Part shown: positions 10,812-28,807 of the stretch, piece after piece
How the letters are laid out: each line of letters opens with the position of its first letter
Numbering within the stretch: position 1 is the first letter of the stretch
Source: an uncultured Actinomycetes bacterium
GTDB taxonomy: Bacteria; Actinomycetota; Actinomycetes; S36-B12; UBA10799
Reading direction: 5' to 3'
Length of the DNA: 64,000 bases
NCBI GenBank assembly: GCA_946803585.1
Contig: CAMPEQ010000007.1
Span: forward strand, 156,451 to 220,450
Made by a program: the position numbers and the translations under genes
Notes under the pieces: generated by a model
What the model saw: only the letters and a program-made list of their open reading frames with translations
What the model was told of the DNA's origin: nothing
Database searches by the model: none

Positions 10812-10912
10812 CTCGGCCGGCCGAATGGCTCTCGATCGCCGAGCAATCGGTGCCCCTAACAGGCAAGGATGGCGGCAACACCGTCCAATCCTCTAGTCAT
10901 CAAGGCGGATAC

Positions 10913-11923
10913 ATGAGTACTCACGAGTCAATTGACCGCAACGGAACCGATATTGGTATCGAAGCTGTTATGGACCTTTCCGACATTATCGCGAGTCTGC
11001 AGGATCTCTCCGATGATGAGTTGAAGCTCAAGGGAATGGCCGTTGAGGGCACTCTTGATGAGATGGACGATCCAGTACTACTCGGGCCTGATGGCACCCC
11101 AGTGAATACGTGGAAAGAGGACTACCCATACCAGGAGCGGATGGGTCGCCACGAGTACGAAGTCACCAAACGACTTCTACAGATTGAGTTGCTCAAAGTC
11201 CAAAGTTGGGTCAATGAGACCGGCAAGCGGATAGTCATGGTTTTTGAAGGACGCGACGCAGCCGGCAAGGGTGGCACCATCAAGCGATTCATGGAGCACA
11301 TGAACCCTCGTGGCGCCCGAGTGGTCGCGCTGAATAAGCCCACCAAGGAAGAAAGCACCCAGTGGTACTTCCAGCGCTATATCAAGCACCTGCCAAGCGC
11401 TAGCGAGATCGTGCTCTTCGATAGATCTTGGTACAACCGAGCGGGTGTGGAACGCGTCATGGGTTTCTGCTCCGATCAGGAGTATCAGGAGTTCATGGAG
11501 CAAACTCCCGAGTTCGAGAAGATGCTGACCAGTAGCGGGGTGATTCTCTTCAAGTTCTGGTTCTCCGTCGGCCGCAAGGAACAACTAACCCGATTCACCA
11601 TCCGACGGATCGACCCAGTTCGTCAGTGGAAGCTCAGCCCCATGGACTTGGCGTCGCTGGACTTGTGGGACGACTACTCAAAAGCGAAGTCAGAAATGAT
11701 CGCTTACACCGATACCGAGAATGCGCCGTGGACCGTCGTGCGAAGTAACGACAAGAAGCGGGGACGAGTCGAGGCAATGCGCTGGGTCCTTTACAACTTG
11801 GACTACCCCGGCAAGGACGAGAGCGTCATTGGTACCCCCGATCCCTACATTGTCGGTCCACCAGAGGTGGTCTACGAACATGAGGAATCTCCAGAGCCAC
11901 CCATCGAGTTCGTCGAGGGATAG
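10913..11923 (+). CDS. ppk2: Polyphosphate kinase 2 (PPK2)
   Basis: A 336-residue PPK2-family kinase, which uses polyphosphate to phosphorylate nucleotides or works in reverse. Motif I GRDAAGKGG (113-121) is the phosphate-binding loop, and DRSWYNR (169-175) belongs to the catalytic core and lid. The open frame runs further upstream, but the ATG at 10913 is preceded by AAGGCGG at proper spacing and is preferred over 10850. The N-terminal 75 residues before the kinase core are acidic, as in actinobacterial members. It stands just before the phospholipid acyltransferase operon. Whether it uses GDP/ADP or AMP cannot be told; the single-domain layout fits class I or III. Confidence 0.9.
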   Translation: MSTHESIDRNGTDIGIEAVMDLSDIIASLQDLSDDELKLKGMAVEGTLDEMDDPVLLGPDGTPVNTWKEDYPYQERMGRHEYEVTKRLLQIELLKVQSWVNETGKRIVMVFEGRDAAGKGGTIKRFMEHMNPRGARVVALNKPTKEESTQWYFQRYIKHLPSASEIVLFDRSWYNRAGVERVMGFCSDQEYQEFMEQTPEFEKMLTSSGVILFKFWFSVGRKEQLTRFTIRRIDPVRQWKLSPMDLASLDLWDDYSKAKSEMIAYTDTENAPWTVVRSNDKKRGRVEAMRWVLYNLDYPGKDESVIGTPDPYIVGPPEVVYEHEESPEPPIEFVEG

Positions 11924-21387: not shown

Positions 21388-22422
21388 ATGGCCGATCGAA
21401 TCCGGGTTCCTGGACCTGGCCCCGGGCCGGGCACCGACGGCATCGGAATTACCAAACCCCTTCAGCTTGCGCACCTACTCCCTAAACCCGTGGTATTTGT
21501 CATGGCAGGGGGTGGTGCCCACGGCTGCGTGCAATGGGGCTTACTACAAGCCCTTTACGAGACGGATATCCGCCCGGATGCGTTGATTGGAACGTCCGCC
21601 GGTGCGTTGACATGCGCCGTCGTGGCGGAGGATCCCATTTCAGCCATCAGCCGACTCACGTACGTGTGGAGTCAGCTAGACCTCGATGTACTTGTCGGTG
21701 ACTCTTGGCTGGCGATGATCACGGCGGCAACCAAGCGGAAGGACTCCATCGCTGACAGCGCCGCCGAACGTGACGCGATAGAGGCGATCTTGGCCGCCCG
21801 GGACTTCTCCGATCTTGCGCTACCTATGGCGGCAGTTGCCACCGACCTGGCGACTGGTGAAGCGACAGCATTCGATGCTGGACCGCTGGTTCCTGCCCTG
21901 CTTGCGTCATCGGCGATTCCTGGAGTTCTACCACCTGTCACGATCGACGGAAGGCGCTACGTCGACGGTCTAGCAAGTGCAAACCTTCCAGCAAAGCTCG
22001 CCGTTGATCGCGGAGCCGGATCAATCATCGTCCTTGGCACAGGGTCTCGAACTCGTGGTCCAGCAGCTACGTCGGCACCCAAGGTCGTCGCACGAGTAAA
22101 CGCAATTCTCAATGCCAGCCAGCGGCAAGGGCAGCTCATCTCGGCAGCAGGTGAAGTCCCAGTGCTACTCCTTCCCACACCAACTAACATGGGCGCAGCG
22201 CTGGACTTCCGAGAGACATTGAGCGCCGCGAGCGCTTCTTACGAGCTCGGCCGCAACTTCCTATTCGACCTCCCTCAAATCGCCGGAAAGCGAAAGCTCA
22301 CGCGAGGGATCTATTCCCGAACTGAGGACATCGGCGGCGATGTCGAGCTTGAGAAGCTAGCAATCGATGTTCCGCGTTTTGAGGCACTGGATAACAGATC
22401 GACCACTGAGGTAAGGGTATGA
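21388..22422 (+). CDS. Patatin-like phospholipase/lipid hydrolase (first of a pair)
   Basis: A 344-residue patatin-domain protein. The oxyanion glycine loop GGGAHG (41-46), nucleophile elbow GTSAG (Ser70) and catalytic Asp in YVDGLA near residue 193 are all present, so it should hydrolyse acyl esters of phospholipids or neutral lipids. There is a short Gly-Pro repeat near the N-terminus (residues 8-15). No signal peptide is seen, so it should be cytoplasmic. Its stop overlaps the start of a second patatin by 4 bases. With two WS/DGATs in the region, a role in storage-lipid turnover is plausible but not shown. Confidence 0.85.
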   Translation: MADRIRVPGPGPGPGTDGIGITKPLQLAHLLPKPVVFVMAGGGAHGCVQWGLLQALYETDIRPDALIGTSAGALTCAVVAEDPISAISRLTYVWSQLDLDVLVGDSWLAMITAATKRKDSIADSAAERDAIEAILAARDFSDLALPMAAVATDLATGEATAFDAGPLVPALLASSAIPGVLPPVTIDGRRYVDGLASANLPAKLAVDRGAGSIIVLGTGSRTRGPAATSAPKVVARVNAILNASQRQGQLISAAGEVPVLLLPTPTNMGAALDFRETLSAASASYELGRNFLFDLPQIAGKRKLTRGIYSRTEDIGGDVELEKLAIDVPRFEALDNRSTTEVRV

Positions 22423-23321
22423 GTCCCCGGCATACCGGTGCGAGGTTTCGACTACCGGAACCCATCGCGTATACCTTCAGCGGAGGTCTCGCACGAACAG
22501 CAGCGCAGATCGGAATGGCTCCTGCACTATGCCATGCGGGGATCGAACCCAATCTGGTTGTCGGCACATCCGCCGGAGCCGTAAACGCCGCGCTGTTCGC
22601 TACCGATCCGAATGATTTCGAACTCGCCGCGACCGAGCTTTGGGCGGGAGTATCCAAGGACAAGGCGCTGACCTCGATTCGGCGATCAACTGTTCGAGGT
22701 CTTGCCAGCTCACAAGCTTCCCGTACCCGCAACATGCTGCGCAAACACTTAGACAGGGCATTCGGGACCCTCACCTTCGATCAGCTTTCACTTCCATTAA
22801 GCGTGACCGCAACAGCCCTGGAAAGTGGCCGACCCGTACTTATCGACGACGGCTCAGTAGTCGATGCGCTGCTAGCGACAATGGCATTCCCTGCGGTGAT
22901 GCCTCCGAGTACGCTCACCGATGGTCGACTCGTAGTCGACGGAAGTATGGTTGCTGATGTTCCCGTCGGCCAAGCAATCACGGCCGGAGCCAACAGCGCT
23001 GTCGTACTGGACGCGGGGAGTTCCGTGGTAGATGAATCATCGGTCATCGACATCGGCTGGTATCACGTCATGGCGCTTTCTGCGACACATATGCTGCGCA
23101 GCCAAGCGCAGCACCAGGTTGCGATGGCCGCTGCCAAGATTCCCGTCGTGGTAGTCAGTATCGCGACGGGCAATCCCTTCGACCTACGAAATGCCTTGGA
23201 CTCGGTCCCGAATGGGACTGCGGCGGCTGATCGCGTCGTTGCTGAGATCAACTCACACATCGGGACCCGACGCCGCACCCTGCGCCCCGGCCAGCACGGC
23301 GATCAACTCATTTCCCGCTAG
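22419..23321 (+). CDS. Patatin-like hydrolase (second of a pair, altered glycine loop)
   Basis: A 300-residue patatin paralogue, coupled to the first by a 4-base overlap. The nucleophile GTSAG (Ser51) and the Asp in VVDGSM (about residue 173) are kept. The oxyanion loop reads SGGLAR instead of the usual GGGxRG, so the active site may be altered. The two proteins are similar in length and motif order, as expected after tandem duplication, and may form a heterodimer with one catalytic and one modified subunit (inference). Confidence 0.82.
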   Translation: MSPRHTGARFRLPEPIAYTFSGGLARTAAQIGMAPALCHAGIEPNLVVGTSAGAVNAALFATDPNDFELAATELWAGVSKDKALTSIRRSTVRGLASSQASRTRNMLRKHLDRAFGTLTFDQLSLPLSVTATALESGRPVLIDDGSVVDALLATMAFPAVMPPSTLTDGRLVVDGSMVADVPVGQAITAGANSAVVLDAGSSVVDESSVIDIGWYHVMALSATHMLRSQAQHQVAMAAAKIPVVVVSIATGNPFDLRNALDSVPNGTAAADRVVAEINSHIGTRRRTLRPGQHGDQLISR

Positions 23322-23494: not shown

Positions 23495-25894
23495 ATGTCA
23501 AGTACTGAGGTAGACGAGCTCGCGGCCGTTACGACCAGACTTGCTAACCCCAGCATGGCGGAGGTCCAAAGCGTTGATGCGTGGTGGCGGGCCGCGAACT
23601 ATCTAACGATCGGCCAGATCTACCTTCGGGAGAATCCACTCGTTGAGAGGGACCTCTCCCCCGCCGACATTAAGCCGCGATTGCTGGGCCACTGGGGAAC
23701 AAGTCCAGGCCTGTCGTTTGTCTACGCCCACACCTCGCGACTCATCCGCGAGACTGGTCAGTCAACGATCTACATGGCTGGACCCGGTCATGGAGGTCCC
23801 GCGCTAGTGGCGGCCTCGTGGCTGGAGGGCACCTACACCGAGTCGTTTCCTGACATCACGCGCGACAAGCACGGAATGCTCAAGCTATTCCGGCAGTTCT
23901 CGGCTCCCGGTGGAATCCCGAGCCACGCCTCCGTTACGACACCGGGATCGATCCACGAAGGTGGCGAACTCGGCTACGTACTCGTCCACGCCTTTGGCTC
24001 GGTTATGGATAACCCTGAGCTTCTGACCATTGCAATGGTCGGTGACGGTGAGGCGGAGACTGCCACTCTCGAGGGATCGTGGAAGGGCATCTCCTTCATT
24101 AATCCCGAACACGATGGCGCAGTCTTGCCGATCATCCACCTCAATGGCTACAAGATCGCTGGGCCGACAGTACTGGCCCGTAAGGATCCAGAACTTCTCC
24201 GTCAACTATTCGAGGGTCACGGCTACGAGGTACTCGAGGTCGGTGGCGATGATTTGCCCGGCATGCACGAGCGGTTCGCGGCGACTCTCGCATATGCCTA
24301 CGAGAAGATCCGACGAATCCAAATCAAGGCCCGTGCGAATCCTGGCGAAGTTCATCAGGCCCGGTGGCCACTCATCGTCATGCGCACCCCGAAGGGATGG
24401 ACCGGCCCAGACATTGTCGATGGTGTGCAGGTAGCGGGAACGTGGCGCGCACACCAAGTGCCGCTATCCGGAGTTCGGGACAACCCGGCTCACCTACAGC
24501 TGCTTCAGGACTGGCTGGAGTCCTACGGACCGCACGACTTGTTCTCCGCTGACGGTGTTCCCTGCCAAGATGTACTTTCGGCTAACCCCGCCGGCGAGTT
24601 GCGGATGAGCGGAAACCCGAACGCTAACGGCGGGCTCCTTACCCGCGAGCTGCGAATCCCCGACTTCCGGCAGTTCGCCGTGGACGTACCCGAGCCCGCA
24701 ACGGTGCGCGCCGAATCTACTCGATCCCTCGGCGAGATGATGCAAGTGATCTACGAGCAGAACCCGACCAACTTCCGGCTGTTCTGTCCAGATGAGACCA
24801 ATAGCAACCGACTCGGCGCTGTCTTCAACGTCACCGATCGCGCCTTCATGGAAGAGGTCTACGACGGCGATACCGCTCTGTCGTCAAAGGGCCGAGTTAT
24901 GGAGGTGCTAAGCGAGAATAACTGTCAAGGCTGGCTAGAGGGATATACCTTGACCGGCCGCTACGGACTGTTTGCCACGTACGAGGCATTCGCGATGGTG
25001 AGCGCTTCACAGACAATCCAACACGCAAAGTGGCTCGAGGAGGCGAATCATCTCTCGTGGCGCGCCAAGGTTCCGAGCTTGAACATCTTGCTCACCTCGA
25101 CAGCGTGGCGCAATGACCATAACGGCTTCTCACACCAAGGTCCTGGCCTACTCTCGACCGCTTTGACCGCCCGTGGAGACGTCGCGCGGATCTACCTTCC
25201 ACCGGACGCGAACTGCCTGCTCTCGGTTGCCGACCACTGCTTCCGCTCGAAGTCCTATGTGAACCTGATTGTGATTGATAAGCAACCACAGTTGCAGTGG
25301 CTGACCATGGAGGAGGCCGTCGAGCACTGCACGCGCGGTGCGGGGATCTGGCACTGGGCAGGTACCGACGATGGTGAGTCCGATCCCGATATCGTCCTCG
25401 CTGGCGCCGGAGATGTCGTGACTCAGGAAGTCATCGCGGCGGCCGACATCCTCAAGCAGAGACTGCCGAAGATGAAGACTCGCGTGGTCAACGTCGTGGA
25501 TCTCATGGCGTTGCATCGACCAAAGGACCACCCCCACGGTATGGACGAACTTATGTTCCGTGAGCTCTTTACCGACACCGTCGATGTCATCTTCGCCTTC
25601 CACGGCTACCCAGAGGCGGTGCATGGACTGGTTCACGGCCGCCCGGATCAAGACCGGTTCCGCGCTCGGGGGTTCATCGAACAGGGAACGACAACCACGC
25701 CATTTGACATGGTGGTGCGCAACAAGGTGTCTCGTTACCACATCGTCATGGATGCACTGAACAACGCTAGCCGCGCGGTCACGGGAGCCGACGACCTTAT
25801 GCGGTGGTGTCAGGCCGAACTCGATCGCCACGAGGAGTACGTCGTGGAGCACTTGGAGGACATGCCGGAAGTGACCGACTGGTCGCTGGCCTGA
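23495..25894 (+). CDS. xfp: Xylulose-5-phosphate/fructose-6-phosphate phosphoketolase
   Basis: A 799-residue thiamine-diphosphate enzyme that splits xylulose-5-phosphate or fructose-6-phosphate with phosphate into acetyl phosphate and a shorter sugar phosphate. Full family length. Visible motifs are GPGHGGPA near residue 90, the TPP/Mg motif GDGEAETATLEG near 183, and HLNGYKI after it. The acetate kinase gene follows 11 bases later, so acetyl phosphate can be turned directly into ATP and acetate. The 173-base leader contains a distant inverted repeat and two GGGCCC sites. The ATG has AAGGG upstream. Confidence 0.95.
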   Translation: MSSTEVDELAAVTTRLANPSMAEVQSVDAWWRAANYLTIGQIYLRENPLVERDLSPADIKPRLLGHWGTSPGLSFVYAHTSRLIRETGQSTIYMAGPGHGGPALVAASWLEGTYTESFPDITRDKHGMLKLFRQFSAPGGIPSHASVTTPGSIHEGGELGYVLVHAFGSVMDNPELLTIAMVGDGEAETATLEGSWKGISFINPEHDGAVLPIIHLNGYKIAGPTVLARKDPELLRQLFEGHGYEVLEVGGDDLPGMHERFAATLAYAYEKIRRIQIKARANPGEVHQARWPLIVMRTPKGWTGPDIVDGVQVAGTWRAHQVPLSGVRDNPAHLQLLQDWLESYGPHDLFSADGVPCQDVLSANPAGELRMSGNPNANGGLLTRELRIPDFRQFAVDVPEPATVRAESTRSLGEMMQVIYEQNPTNFRLFCPDETNSNRLGAVFNVTDRAFMEEVYDGDTALSSKGRVMEVLSENNCQGWLEGYTLTGRYGLFATYEAFAMVSASQTIQHAKWLEEANHLSWRAKVPSLNILLTSTAWRNDHNGFSHQGPGLLSTALTARGDVARIYLPPDANCLLSVADHCFRSKSYVNLIVIDKQPQLQWLTMEEAVEHCTRGAGIWHWAGTDDGESDPDIVLAGAGDVVTQEVIAAADILKQRLPKMKTRVVNVVDLMALHRPKDHPHGMDELMFRELFTDTVDVIFAFHGYPEAVHGLVHGRPDQDRFRARGFIEQGTTTTPFDMVVRNKVSRYHIVMDALNNASRAVTGADDLMRWCQAELDRHEEYVVEHLEDMPEVTDWSLA

Positions 25895-25905
25895 GTGCGA
25901 CTGAT

Positions 25906-27000
25906 ATGCGCGTACTCGTCGTTAACGCTGGATCGAGCAGCCTAAAGCTTCAGATCCTCGATGATCACCAACTAGTTGTCGATCTTAACCTTCAACGCTG
26001 GTCTCCAGCAGACGGATTCGAGCCGATACGTTCGGCACTTGCTGGCCATGAGCACATCGACGCGGTCGGGCACCGGGTAGTTCACGGCGGCCAGATGTAC
26101 GTCGAATCGACAGTCATCACCGACGAGGTCATCACGAACCTGGAGTCCATTCAGGACCTAGCACCGTTGCACTTGCCACCCGCTTTAGCAGCGATCGAAG
26201 CAGCGCGACAGCTACTGCCAGACCTCACCCATGTTGCCTGCTTCGATACCGCATTCCATCGCAGCATTCCCGCAGCTGCGGCTACCTACGCGCTACCCCG
26301 AGAATGGAACAAGAAGTGGGGGCTTCGCAGGTACGGCTTCCACGGGCTCTCTCACGCCTACGCTTGCGCGAAGGGCGCCGAACTATTAGATCGACCGCTC
26401 AGTGAACTGCGAATCGTGACAGCTCATCTAGGTGCCGGAGCTTCCCTAACCGCGATAGATGGCGGGCAATCGGTAGACACCACGATGGGGTTCACGCCCC
26501 TTGAGGGCCTCGTGATGGCAACTCGCAGCGGCAGCGTCGACCCAGGACTGGTTCTGTGGCTACAACGCAATGCTCACTACAGCCTCGATGAGATCACCGA
26601 TCGGCTAGAACATGGCTCTGGTCTTGCCGGGTTATCTGGGACTTCCGGTGATCTGCGCGATGTGGTGGCCCTCGCCGAAGCCGGTGAGCCCGACGCTGTG
26701 CTTGCACTCGCGGTGTATCACCACCGGTTGGCGACGCTCACGGGATCGATGATCACTTCCATGGGCGGCATTGACATGGTTGTCTTCACTGGGGGCATTG
26801 GCGAGCACTCCGAACTTGTCCGTCGCTCCCTCGCCAAGTCACTGCAATTCCTCGGCGCAAACATCGACGAGTTATCGAACACGGCCAATGGCACGGATCG
26901 ACTTGTGAGTACGACGGAGTCAACGGTCGCACTTGCCGTCGTGCAAGCCCGCGAAGACATCCAAATCGCCGACGAGGTCGCACAACTACTCGCGGCCTAG
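25906..27000 (+). CDS. ackA: Acetate kinase
   Basis: A 364-residue acetokinase. NAGSSSLKLQ at residues 7-16 (phosphate 1 region), GHRVVHGG, FDTAFH, YGFHGLSH and GLSGTSGDLRD are all present. It makes ATP and acetate from acetyl phosphate, the product of the phosphoketolase immediately upstream. The open frame extends to 25804 inside xfp, but the family N-terminus begins at the ATG at 25906. It is somewhat shorter than the usual 400 residues, mainly through a compact N-terminal region. No phosphotransacetylase gene is adjacent. Confidence 0.95.
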   Translation: MRVLVVNAGSSSLKLQILDDHQLVVDLNLQRWSPADGFEPIRSALAGHEHIDAVGHRVVHGGQMYVESTVITDEVITNLESIQDLAPLHLPPALAAIEAARQLLPDLTHVACFDTAFHRSIPAAAATYALPREWNKKWGLRRYGFHGLSHAYACAKGAELLDRPLSELRIVTAHLGAGASLTAIDGGQSVDTTMGFTPLEGLVMATRSGSVDPGLVLWLQRNAHYSLDEITDRLEHGSGLAGLSGTSGDLRDVVALAEAGEPDAVLALAVYHHRLATLTGSMITSMGGIDMVVFTGGIGEHSELVRRSLAKSLQFLGANIDELSNTANGTDRLVSTTESTVALAVVQAREDIQIADEVAQLLAA

Positions 27001-27025: not shown

Positions 27026-28807
27026 CTATGACTTCTTCGATCCCGTCGCAGCCGTCTTTGCTGGCGCCTTCTTGGCCGGAGCCTTCTTAGCCGGAGCCTT
27101 CTTAGCCGCAGCCTTCTTAGCCGGAGCCTTCTTGGCTGGTGCCTTCTTCGTTGCCGCCTTCTTGGCAGCGGACTGCTGGGTCCCGGTCGCCGCTGTCCTC
27201 TTTTCCGGAGCCTTCTTTGCCGGAGCCTTCTTTACCGGAGCGGACTTCTTGACAGCAGCCTTCTTCGCCGCCGACCTTCTCGTGGGAGCCTTCTTCGCCG
27301 CACGGGATGGCCGCTGCGCAGCCCGCTTTGAACCAGAATCCTCACTCGTACCTTCTACATCGACCGCCGTCAGCGGATTTGCATCTGAGACAGGCTTACC
27401 GACCACATCGGCGAACCCGTCACGTAGGCATGACATCAGCAGATCACGATCGGTAATCGCAGCGTCATCCATGGCAACACCAATAGTGGCGGTACCCGCG
27501 TAGGTTAATAGCGCCACAAAGACTGCCGCACCGATTGGGGGTGGTAGCGGCACCATGGCCTCTACTTTTGCCCCTGCTAGGTAGACGGGAATAGGTGGAC
27601 CCGGAACGTTAGACGCAGTTACATCGCTGGCCTGTGCCGCGACGGTTAGTAGCTCGCGAGGAATGAACCGACTGATCTCGCCGAGTTGGTTTGTGTAATC
27701 GACTGCAGGCTCGGCCCTCATCCGCTTAACCGATGCCTGCAACTGATTCATCAGGGCGGAGATATCTGAGACATTCGTTGGCAACTCAAAACGCGCGATG
27801 GTGACGGCATTCTGTGCTTCCTTGCCCTTCTTCCGCGTGCTGATCGGCATGTTGATATTCAGCTCATCCACCGGCGCACCCAGCGAGGTGTGGTACTCAC
27901 TCATTCCCATCGATACGGCAGCAAGGAACGCGTCGTTGATCGTATTTCCGCGAGACTTCGCCGCTGTATGGAGATCAGAGAACGGCAAGTCAAACGTTCC
28001 AAAGTGATAGTTAATACTGCGCTTGCGCATGAGCGGCGACAGTGGGGATGTGGGTGTATCCATCATGCGAGCGAGAGAGGAGACGGTCTCGCTAATGCGC
28101 TCGACAGTCTCGTGTGGAGACGTAAGCGCGTCGAGCAATGCGGGCACCGCACCCTTGACGATGTGGGCAGCCGTATCGATCACCCACTCGGCATTGTCCT
28201 GAACCATGATCTCGGCGAATCCGCGAGGAGTAAGGGCAACTGGCTCTGGCGCATCCGGCATCGGTCCAAGGTCCGGTTGCTCGGCAGTGATATCCACGAT
28301 CGCAGCTCCAAGCTGCATGGCGCCTTGTCCATCAGCAATTGCATGGTGCAGTTTCGAGATTAGCGCCGATCGTCCACCAGGTAGTCCTTCTAGCAGGGTG
28401 ACCCGCCAAAGCGGCCTGTCGTTGTCAAAGTCCGTCATACTCTGTCGACGACACTCATCAAGCACGTCTTGCCACGCAGTCCCCTCCGTCACTCGGAAGC
28501 GGCGCAAATGGAAGCTCAGGTCGAAGTTCGGATCGACGACGAGACGGGGGTTCGCGATTCCTACCGGGCCTTCAACAATCCGCTGGCGCAGAATCGGCAC
28601 GATACGACTCGCGCGTTCGTAGCGCGCGACCAATGTCTGCCAATCCGGGGCCTTATCCAGAATCAGCAGTCCGATCATCGTCGAGCGCATGATCGGGTCT
28701 TCCGAAGCAGACCTCCACGTTGCATAGTCCCAACCAGAAAGTCGCTCGGTCGTCGGCACAAGTTCTCCTGTTGTCTCGTTGTCTGAATCGCGTGGATACT
28801 TCGGCAA
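27026..28807 (-). CDS. Wax ester synthase/diacylglycerol acyltransferase with histone-like tail
   Basis: A 593-residue WS/DGAT enzyme that would acylate fatty alcohols or diacylglycerol from acyl-CoA to make storage wax esters or triacylglycerol. The catalytic motif HHAIADG is at 154-160. The usual domain ends near residue 480. After it come about 100 residues (493-593) made almost wholly of Lys, Ala and Pro, with repeats such as KKAPAKKAPAKK; about a third of this tail is basic. Such tails occur in histone-H1-like proteins and in the PHA-granule protein PhaF, where they bind DNA. The start is TTG, with a TAGTTT box 6 bases upstream (leaderless pattern). Core assignment is firm; tail function is inference. 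Confidence 0.9.
   Translation of the reverse strand: MPKYPRDSDNETTGELVPTTERLSGWDYATWRSASEDPIMRSTMIGLLILDKAPDWQTLVARYERASRIVPILRQRIVEGPVGIANPRLVVDPNFDLSFHLRRFRVTEGTAWQDVLDECRRQSMTDFDNDRPLWRVTLLEGLPGGRSALISKLHHAIADGQGAMQLGAAIVDITAEQPDLGPMPDAPEPVALTPRGFAEIMVQDNAEWVIDTAAHIVKGAVPALLDALTSPHETVERISETVSSLARMMDTPTSPLSPLMRKRSINYHFGTFDLPFSDLHTAAKSRGNTINDAFLAAVSMGMSEYHTSLGAPVDELNINMPISTRKKGKEAQNAVTIARFELPTNVSDISALMNQLQASVKRMRAEPAVDYTNQLGEISRFIPRELLTVAAQASDVTASNVPGPPIPVYLAGAKVEAMVPLPPPIGAAVFVALLTYAGTATIGVAMDDAAITDRDLLMSCLRDGFADVVGKPVSDANPLTAVDVEGTSEDSGSKRAAQRPSRAAKKAPTRRSAAKKAAVKKSAPVKKAPAKKAPEKRTAATGTQQSAAKKAATKKAPAKKAPAKKAAAKKAPAKKAPAKKAPAKTAATGSKKS
27060..27300 (-). repeat. Imperfect tandem repeats encoding the KKAPAKKA tail
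   Basis: Units of about 15 bases, seen on the plus strand as variants of GCCGGAGCCTTCTTA, recur through this stretch and encode Lys-Lys-Ala-Pro-Ala-type units. They lie within the WS/DGAT reading frame. Such repeats can expand or contract by slippage, so tail length may differ between strains. Confidence 0.75.

Follow-up and report, generated by a model that had tools for sequence, protein, structure and literature searches.

A selectively maintained lysine-rich tail on an actinobacterial wax ester/triacylglycerol synthase that may tether the enzyme to the nucleoid

The window analyzed here, a 64,000-nucleotide stretch of DNA from an uncultured Actinomycetes bacterium, encodes a wax ester/triacylglycerol synthase (WS/DGAT) that ends in a long lysine-rich tail. 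The positive charge of this tail, lysine above all, is under purifying selection within the clade to which the protein belongs (clade W). By analogy with characterized proteins, the best single account is that in living cells the tail keeps the synthase and its lipid droplets attached to the nucleoid, a reading to which we give an even chance.

Table 1. Features of the two WS/DGATs encoded in the window; residue numbers refer to the clade-W protein.
Feature	Position	Strand	Remarks
WS/DGAT gene, clade W	27026..28807	-	593 aa; TTG start at 28807, stop 27026-27028
Catalytic body, residues 23-466	27410..28741	-	PF03007 (23-293) and PF06974 (333-466)
HHAIADG active-site motif, residues 154-160	28328..28348	-	HHxxxDG intact
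Linker, residues 467-492	27332..27409	-	Ends in acidic stretch DVEGTSEDSG; pLDDT <50 from residue 482
Lys/Ala/Pro tail, residues 493-593	27029..27331	-	Predicted disordered; kept in 9/9 family orthologues
Second WS/DGAT, clade V, 467 aa	44118..45521	+	No tail

Judging by its domains and HHxxxDG motif, the clade-W protein (hereafter W) is an active-type wax ester/triacylglycerol synthase. PF03007 and PF06974 score 139.9 and 70.4 bits against Pfam cut-offs of 23.6 and 20.7, and H155, D159 and G160 are invariant across the six WS/DGATs compared. The NCBIfam model TIGR02946 matches at 1e-76 yet falls below its cut-off (258.6 vs 309.95), as it also does for the second copy in the window. Foldseek, queried with a model of W predicted from a six-sequence input, returned two WS/DGATs as its top matches: 6chj (Marinobacter) and 7nxg (Acinetobacter). 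In domains, motif and fold, W resembles the known members of the family (AtfA/WSD1 of Acinetobacter, Ma2 of Marinobacter and the mycobacterial Tgs), but the two solved WS/DGATs are 455-463 aa long and, judging by chain length, lack a tail. Searches of the body of W against Pfam and NCBIfam matched WS/DGAT families only and found no droplet-binding N-terminus of the MLDS/HBHA/TadA type; a phasin domain was likewise not found with Pfam. The net charge of residues 1-480 is about -15.

The coordinates of the gene in the initial annotation are correct, with the gene on the minus strand, and our counts agree with its description of a Lys/Ala/Pro tail of about 100 residues that is absent from the second copy. 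The actual start codon may be a few codons further downstream than the TTG. A frame check found the plus-strand reading of the same interval riddled with stops. We rejected a 143-aa antisense ORF over the tail (27072-27503, plus strand, LAGAF repeats) as a real gene, since the minus-strand frame runs on from a complete WS/DGAT and is preserved across nine genomes; the ORF is a shadow of AAG/GCN codons.

The tail contains 29 lysines, 34 alanines, 10 prolines and 6 arginines, with a single glutamate as its only acidic residue, and carries a charge of about +33. PAKKA occurs five times (at 529, 557, 562, 572 and 577) and AKKA nine times. The predicted model has a pLDDT of ~33 over residues 482-593, as expected for a disordered segment, and the underlying DNA is an imperfect 15-bp tandem repeat. 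Chance composition can be ruled out as the source of the tail, as its densest 60-aa stretch holds 20 lysines against a maximum of 10 in three shuffled proteomes. Membership of the HC2 histone family (PF07382) was rejected at 29.5 bits against a cut-off of 40; the likeness is compositional only.

To place the tail among its relatives, we collected 79 WS/DGATs, mostly from the same order, and built a tree of 76 from the core alone; many of the relatives come from fragmentary assemblies, and two tails are interrupted by N. Clade W is well supported and W belongs within it. The initial annotation had held that a tail missing from close relatives would speak against its reading; we found the tail in all nine clade-W proteins identified in the GTDB family (from the source genome and eight others), with 8-29 lysines each and a core identity among orthologues of 60-76%. 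Mapping tails onto a WS/DGAT tree, as had been suggested, was carried out mainly within the order: the tail is constant in the family's clade W and comes and goes elsewhere. Several tails in the neighbouring family f3 are built of AKKST repeats, and families f5 and f7 have none within clade W. Lysine-rich tails number about five in clade X, four in Y, two in V, several in Z and none of 11 in U; the clade-V orthologues in genomes G001 and G005 carry them, unlike the clade-V copy of the window. Because at least 12 changes of the lysine-tail label are required on the starred branches of the tree, tails were gained or lost repeatedly in other WS/DGAT clades of the order. Tail lengths range from 29 to 135 aa.

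Spread outside the order was judged from a Halieaceae MAG, a Halieaceae plasmid and nine annotated plasmid-borne WS/DGATs. A WS/DGAT in the Halieaceae (Gammaproteobacteria) MAG has a lysine-rich tail of the same kind (L041:4881-6560), suggesting a separate origin. The WS/DGAT on a Halioglobus pacificus plasmid has a short basic end, with a frame broken near 2271 (L222:1381-2879). The nine plasmid-borne WS/DGATs (Rhodococcus, Mycobacterium, Tsukamurella, Sphingomonas and Caballeronia) have at most three lysines in their last 60 residues. A 531-aa WS/DGAT on a Caballeronia plasmid (L234:314-2475) lies directly after a phasin family gene and has a C-terminal extension that is not lysine-rich.

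Gene order around W is partly conserved. A deacetylase, an alpha/beta hydrolase, an acetyltransferase, W and two patatins occur in this order in both the window and the KLAP17 contig (L038), with phosphoketolase and acetate kinase genes (23495-27000) intervening in the window's genome only. The two patatin-like genes adjoin each other at 21388-23321 of the window, and in the KLAP17 contig they keep synteny with the WS/DGAT.

Two lines of evidence, taken together, indicate purifying selection on the positive charge of the tail, lysine in particular, in clade W. The tails of the order contain 458 AAG and 71 AAA codons, 2 GAG, 1 GAA, 13 AGG and no stop, and changes of AAG to GAG or AGG are transitions, just as AAG to AAA is. 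Their lysine-to-arginine ratio is about 8:1, against 0.42 in the proteome of the source genome (K 2.7%, R 6.4%). In a neutral simulation seeded with the repeat of the W gene itself, and with nucleotide change capped at the level of amino-acid change in the core, all nine tails were kept in 0 of 2000 runs and single leaves in 0.2-9% of runs; the simulation ran without slippage, which could rebuild the repeat, and its result is a guide. A lag-5 and lag-10 codon comparison had a mixed outcome, in tails that include non-repeat parts, and the codon tally is the cleaner test.

We scanned the source genome (2.71 Mb, 60% GC, about 2295 genes) for Lys/Ala tails and found 11 at C-termini: on four WS/DGATs, HU, topoisomerase I (TopA), UvrA, a phasin-like protein, OpcA, a ROK kinase and a 117-aa orphan. 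Seven WS/DGATs score above the Pfam cut-off in this genome, and besides the four with tails a fifth has a short basic end; the idea that the tail is unique to the W copy among them is thus wrong. The presence of four of the seven among the 11 tailed proteins has a hypergeometric probability of 1e-8, or 1e-6 with the sister paralogues W and X counted once. From this list and the WS/DGAT enrichment it follows that the tail is neither confined to DNA proteins nor randomly scattered in the genome.

Several of the other tailed proteins merit description. The phasin-like protein (L156, G000:C7:29096-29785, plus strand; 229 aa) has a KKAPAKK tail and scores 21.9 bits for PF05597, under the cut-off of 28.8; together with the PhaC that the genome also encodes, this gives an actinobacterium a PhaF-like arrangement. 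The tail DNA of this protein is the closest match to that of W (80.7% over 119 nt). UvrA (G000:C7:248316-251330, minus strand) bears a 45-residue AKKAV tail. OpcA (G000:C7:235998-237314) and the ROK kinase (G000:C11:766498-767835) are sugar-metabolism proteins with long Lys/Ala tails, for which neither a granule nor a DNA reading offers an evident reason. Lys/Ala-rich stretches also occur at the N-termini of RpoD and of a 223-aa HBHA-like protein (G000:C3:32087-32758, minus strand). The latter, with its coiled-coil-like remainder, looks like HBHA/MLDS reversed, and its body matched no family in Pfam or NCBIfam.

The tail of W resembles those of several characterized proteins. The literature agrees with both analogies drawn in the initial annotation: the AAKP repeats of PhaF bind DNA (PMC5658603), and so does the MLDS C-terminus, with four PAKKA motifs, in which K-to-E replacement abolishes binding (PMC5504291). 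PhaF puts PHA granules on the nucleoid (PMC13052382), PhaM links PHB granules to it (PMC3556143), and in Rhodococcus MLDS recruits DNA to droplets (PMC5504291). The AKKA domain of HbhA, with five AKKA motifs, is necessary and sufficient for DNA binding; its last 39 residues are enough, and binding shows no sequence preference (PMC10665949). Given nine AKKA motifs and a charge of about +33 in W, against the five motifs that suffice in HbhA, we expect with high confidence that the isolated tail would bind DNA in vitro.

The likeness to these proteins has limits. C-terminal AKKA/PAKKA repeats are shared with MLDS, HBHA and TadA of Rhodococcus and Mycobacterium, but the bodies of those proteins are droplet-binding coiled coils, whereas that of W is a lipid-making enzyme; the likeness claimed is confined to the tail. 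PhaF (Pseudomonas) and PhaM (Ralstonia) join a granule-binding body to a histone-like DNA-binding C-terminus comparable to the tail of W; they serve PHA, and their tether is a protein other than the synthase (PhaM binds PhaC). For W the product would be triacylglycerol and the tether would lie within the synthase. AlgP of Pseudomonas has a similar disordered tail of KPAA repeats on which the even spacing of storage granules depends (PMC9239181), but these are polyP granules and AlgP, unlike W, is no granule-synthesis enzyme. Actinobacterial HU (HupB) and TopA carry lysine-rich C-terminal extensions of the same composition, found on HU and TopA of this genome and on Mycolicibacterium HU, but their bodies bind DNA and have no lipid role.

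On the tethering account, a WS/DGAT would have gained a disordered polycationic AKKA/PAKKA tail, histone-H1-like in character and kept by selection. By binding DNA without sequence preference, the tail would keep the synthase at the surface of the nucleoid, together with the lipid that the enzyme deposits, and the enzyme would act as its own PhaF/MLDS-like tether. Nascent droplets would be spread along the chromosome, from which sharing at division could follow. Nucleoid attachment and droplet placement go beyond DNA binding, itself inferred from the characterized proteins, and sharing at division would be one further step past tethering. Consistent with tethering are the retention of the tail in every family orthologue, its loss in the neutral runs, the codon tally, the WS/DGAT enrichment, the predicted disorder and the number of AKKA motifs, as are the similar tails on HU, TopA, UvrA, the RpoD N-terminus and the phasin-like protein. 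Against tethering stand the tail-less WS/DGATs in the same cell and the frequent loss or gain in other clades, as well as the tails of OpcA and the ROK kinase, on which DNA tethering would have no obvious point and which mean that a Lys/Ala/Pro tail alone does not imply a granule tether. The tether proposed in the initial annotation is thus partly supported, by a conserved tail and by analogies borne out in the literature, but is complicated by OpcA, the ROK kinase and the phosphoinositide binding of HBHA.

That last activity underlies the main rival, in which the tail would anchor W to the membrane or droplet surface through anionic phospholipid head groups, as the lysine-rich repeats of HBHA do, with no role for DNA. 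HBHA without its C-terminal repeats does not bind phosphoinositides and does not restore lipid inclusions (PMC6176652), so a tail of this kind does not prove a DNA ligand, and anionic lipid would be a fitting ligand for an enzyme that acts at a lipid surface. We nevertheless regard this anchor as rather unlikely: lipid binding by HBHA required native lysine methylation, the non-methylated protein failing to bind (PMC6176652), the tails of HBHA and MLDS bind DNA too, and the soluble DNA proteins HU, TopA and UvrA of this genome bear the same tails. The tail could also bind DNA at some times and lipid at others, switched by lysine modification, though this is speculation.

The tails of OpcA and the ROK kinase speak for a general polyanion or solubility tail, which would keep an acidic, lipid-sticky enzyme soluble or bind RNA, ribosomes or polyphosphate without positioning droplets. 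The tailed AlgP associates with polyP granules (PMC9239181), and the window encodes a putative PPK2-like protein (10850-11923). We consider such a general function improbable, as tails are enriched on WS/DGATs and clade U, which shares the fold and has comparably acidic ends, has none, which argues for a clade-specific role. The tandem repeat in the tail DNA, the spread of tail lengths and the many label changes would also suit a functionless by-product of slippage, a 15-bp repeat that grows and shrinks, and is tolerated, at gene ends in a GC-rich genome. Recent slippage does occur, since one f3 tail (L027) has identical codons in every repeat unit, but neutral slippage as a full account is very improbable: codons are diverse while charge is conserved, and the codon tally, the neutral simulation and the unbroken retention in clade W all disfavour it.

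Tethering of W to the nucleoid remains our preferred reading, and what would be new in it is the combination. The parts are already known, but the tethers described so far are proteins in their own right, binding either the granule or its synthase; a limited literature search found no description of a synthase-borne tether and no paper joining wax ester synthase, triacylglycerol and the nucleoid. Little is known of how bacteria position their lipid droplets and divide them among daughter cells. For triacylglycerol droplets, the DNA link known to us is MLDS in Rhodococcus. A 2025 review of bacterial organelle positioning treats granules of PHB and of polyP, and its text contains neither 'lipid droplet' nor 'triacylglycerol' (PMC13052382).

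If the synthase itself binds DNA, the chromosome would set the site of lipid synthesis and not of storage alone, and a single deletion, that of the tail, would part catalysis from placement. The alternation of tailed and tail-less forms among close paralogues and sister species provides natural tail-less controls. More broadly, and more tentatively, the selected tails that evolved repeatedly on several WS/DGAT paralogues may, perhaps together with that of the phasin-like protein, organize triacylglycerol and wax synthesis on the nucleoid. If true, this would amount to a whole-genome strategy in which storage-granule proteins are put on DNA and no dedicated linker protein is needed.
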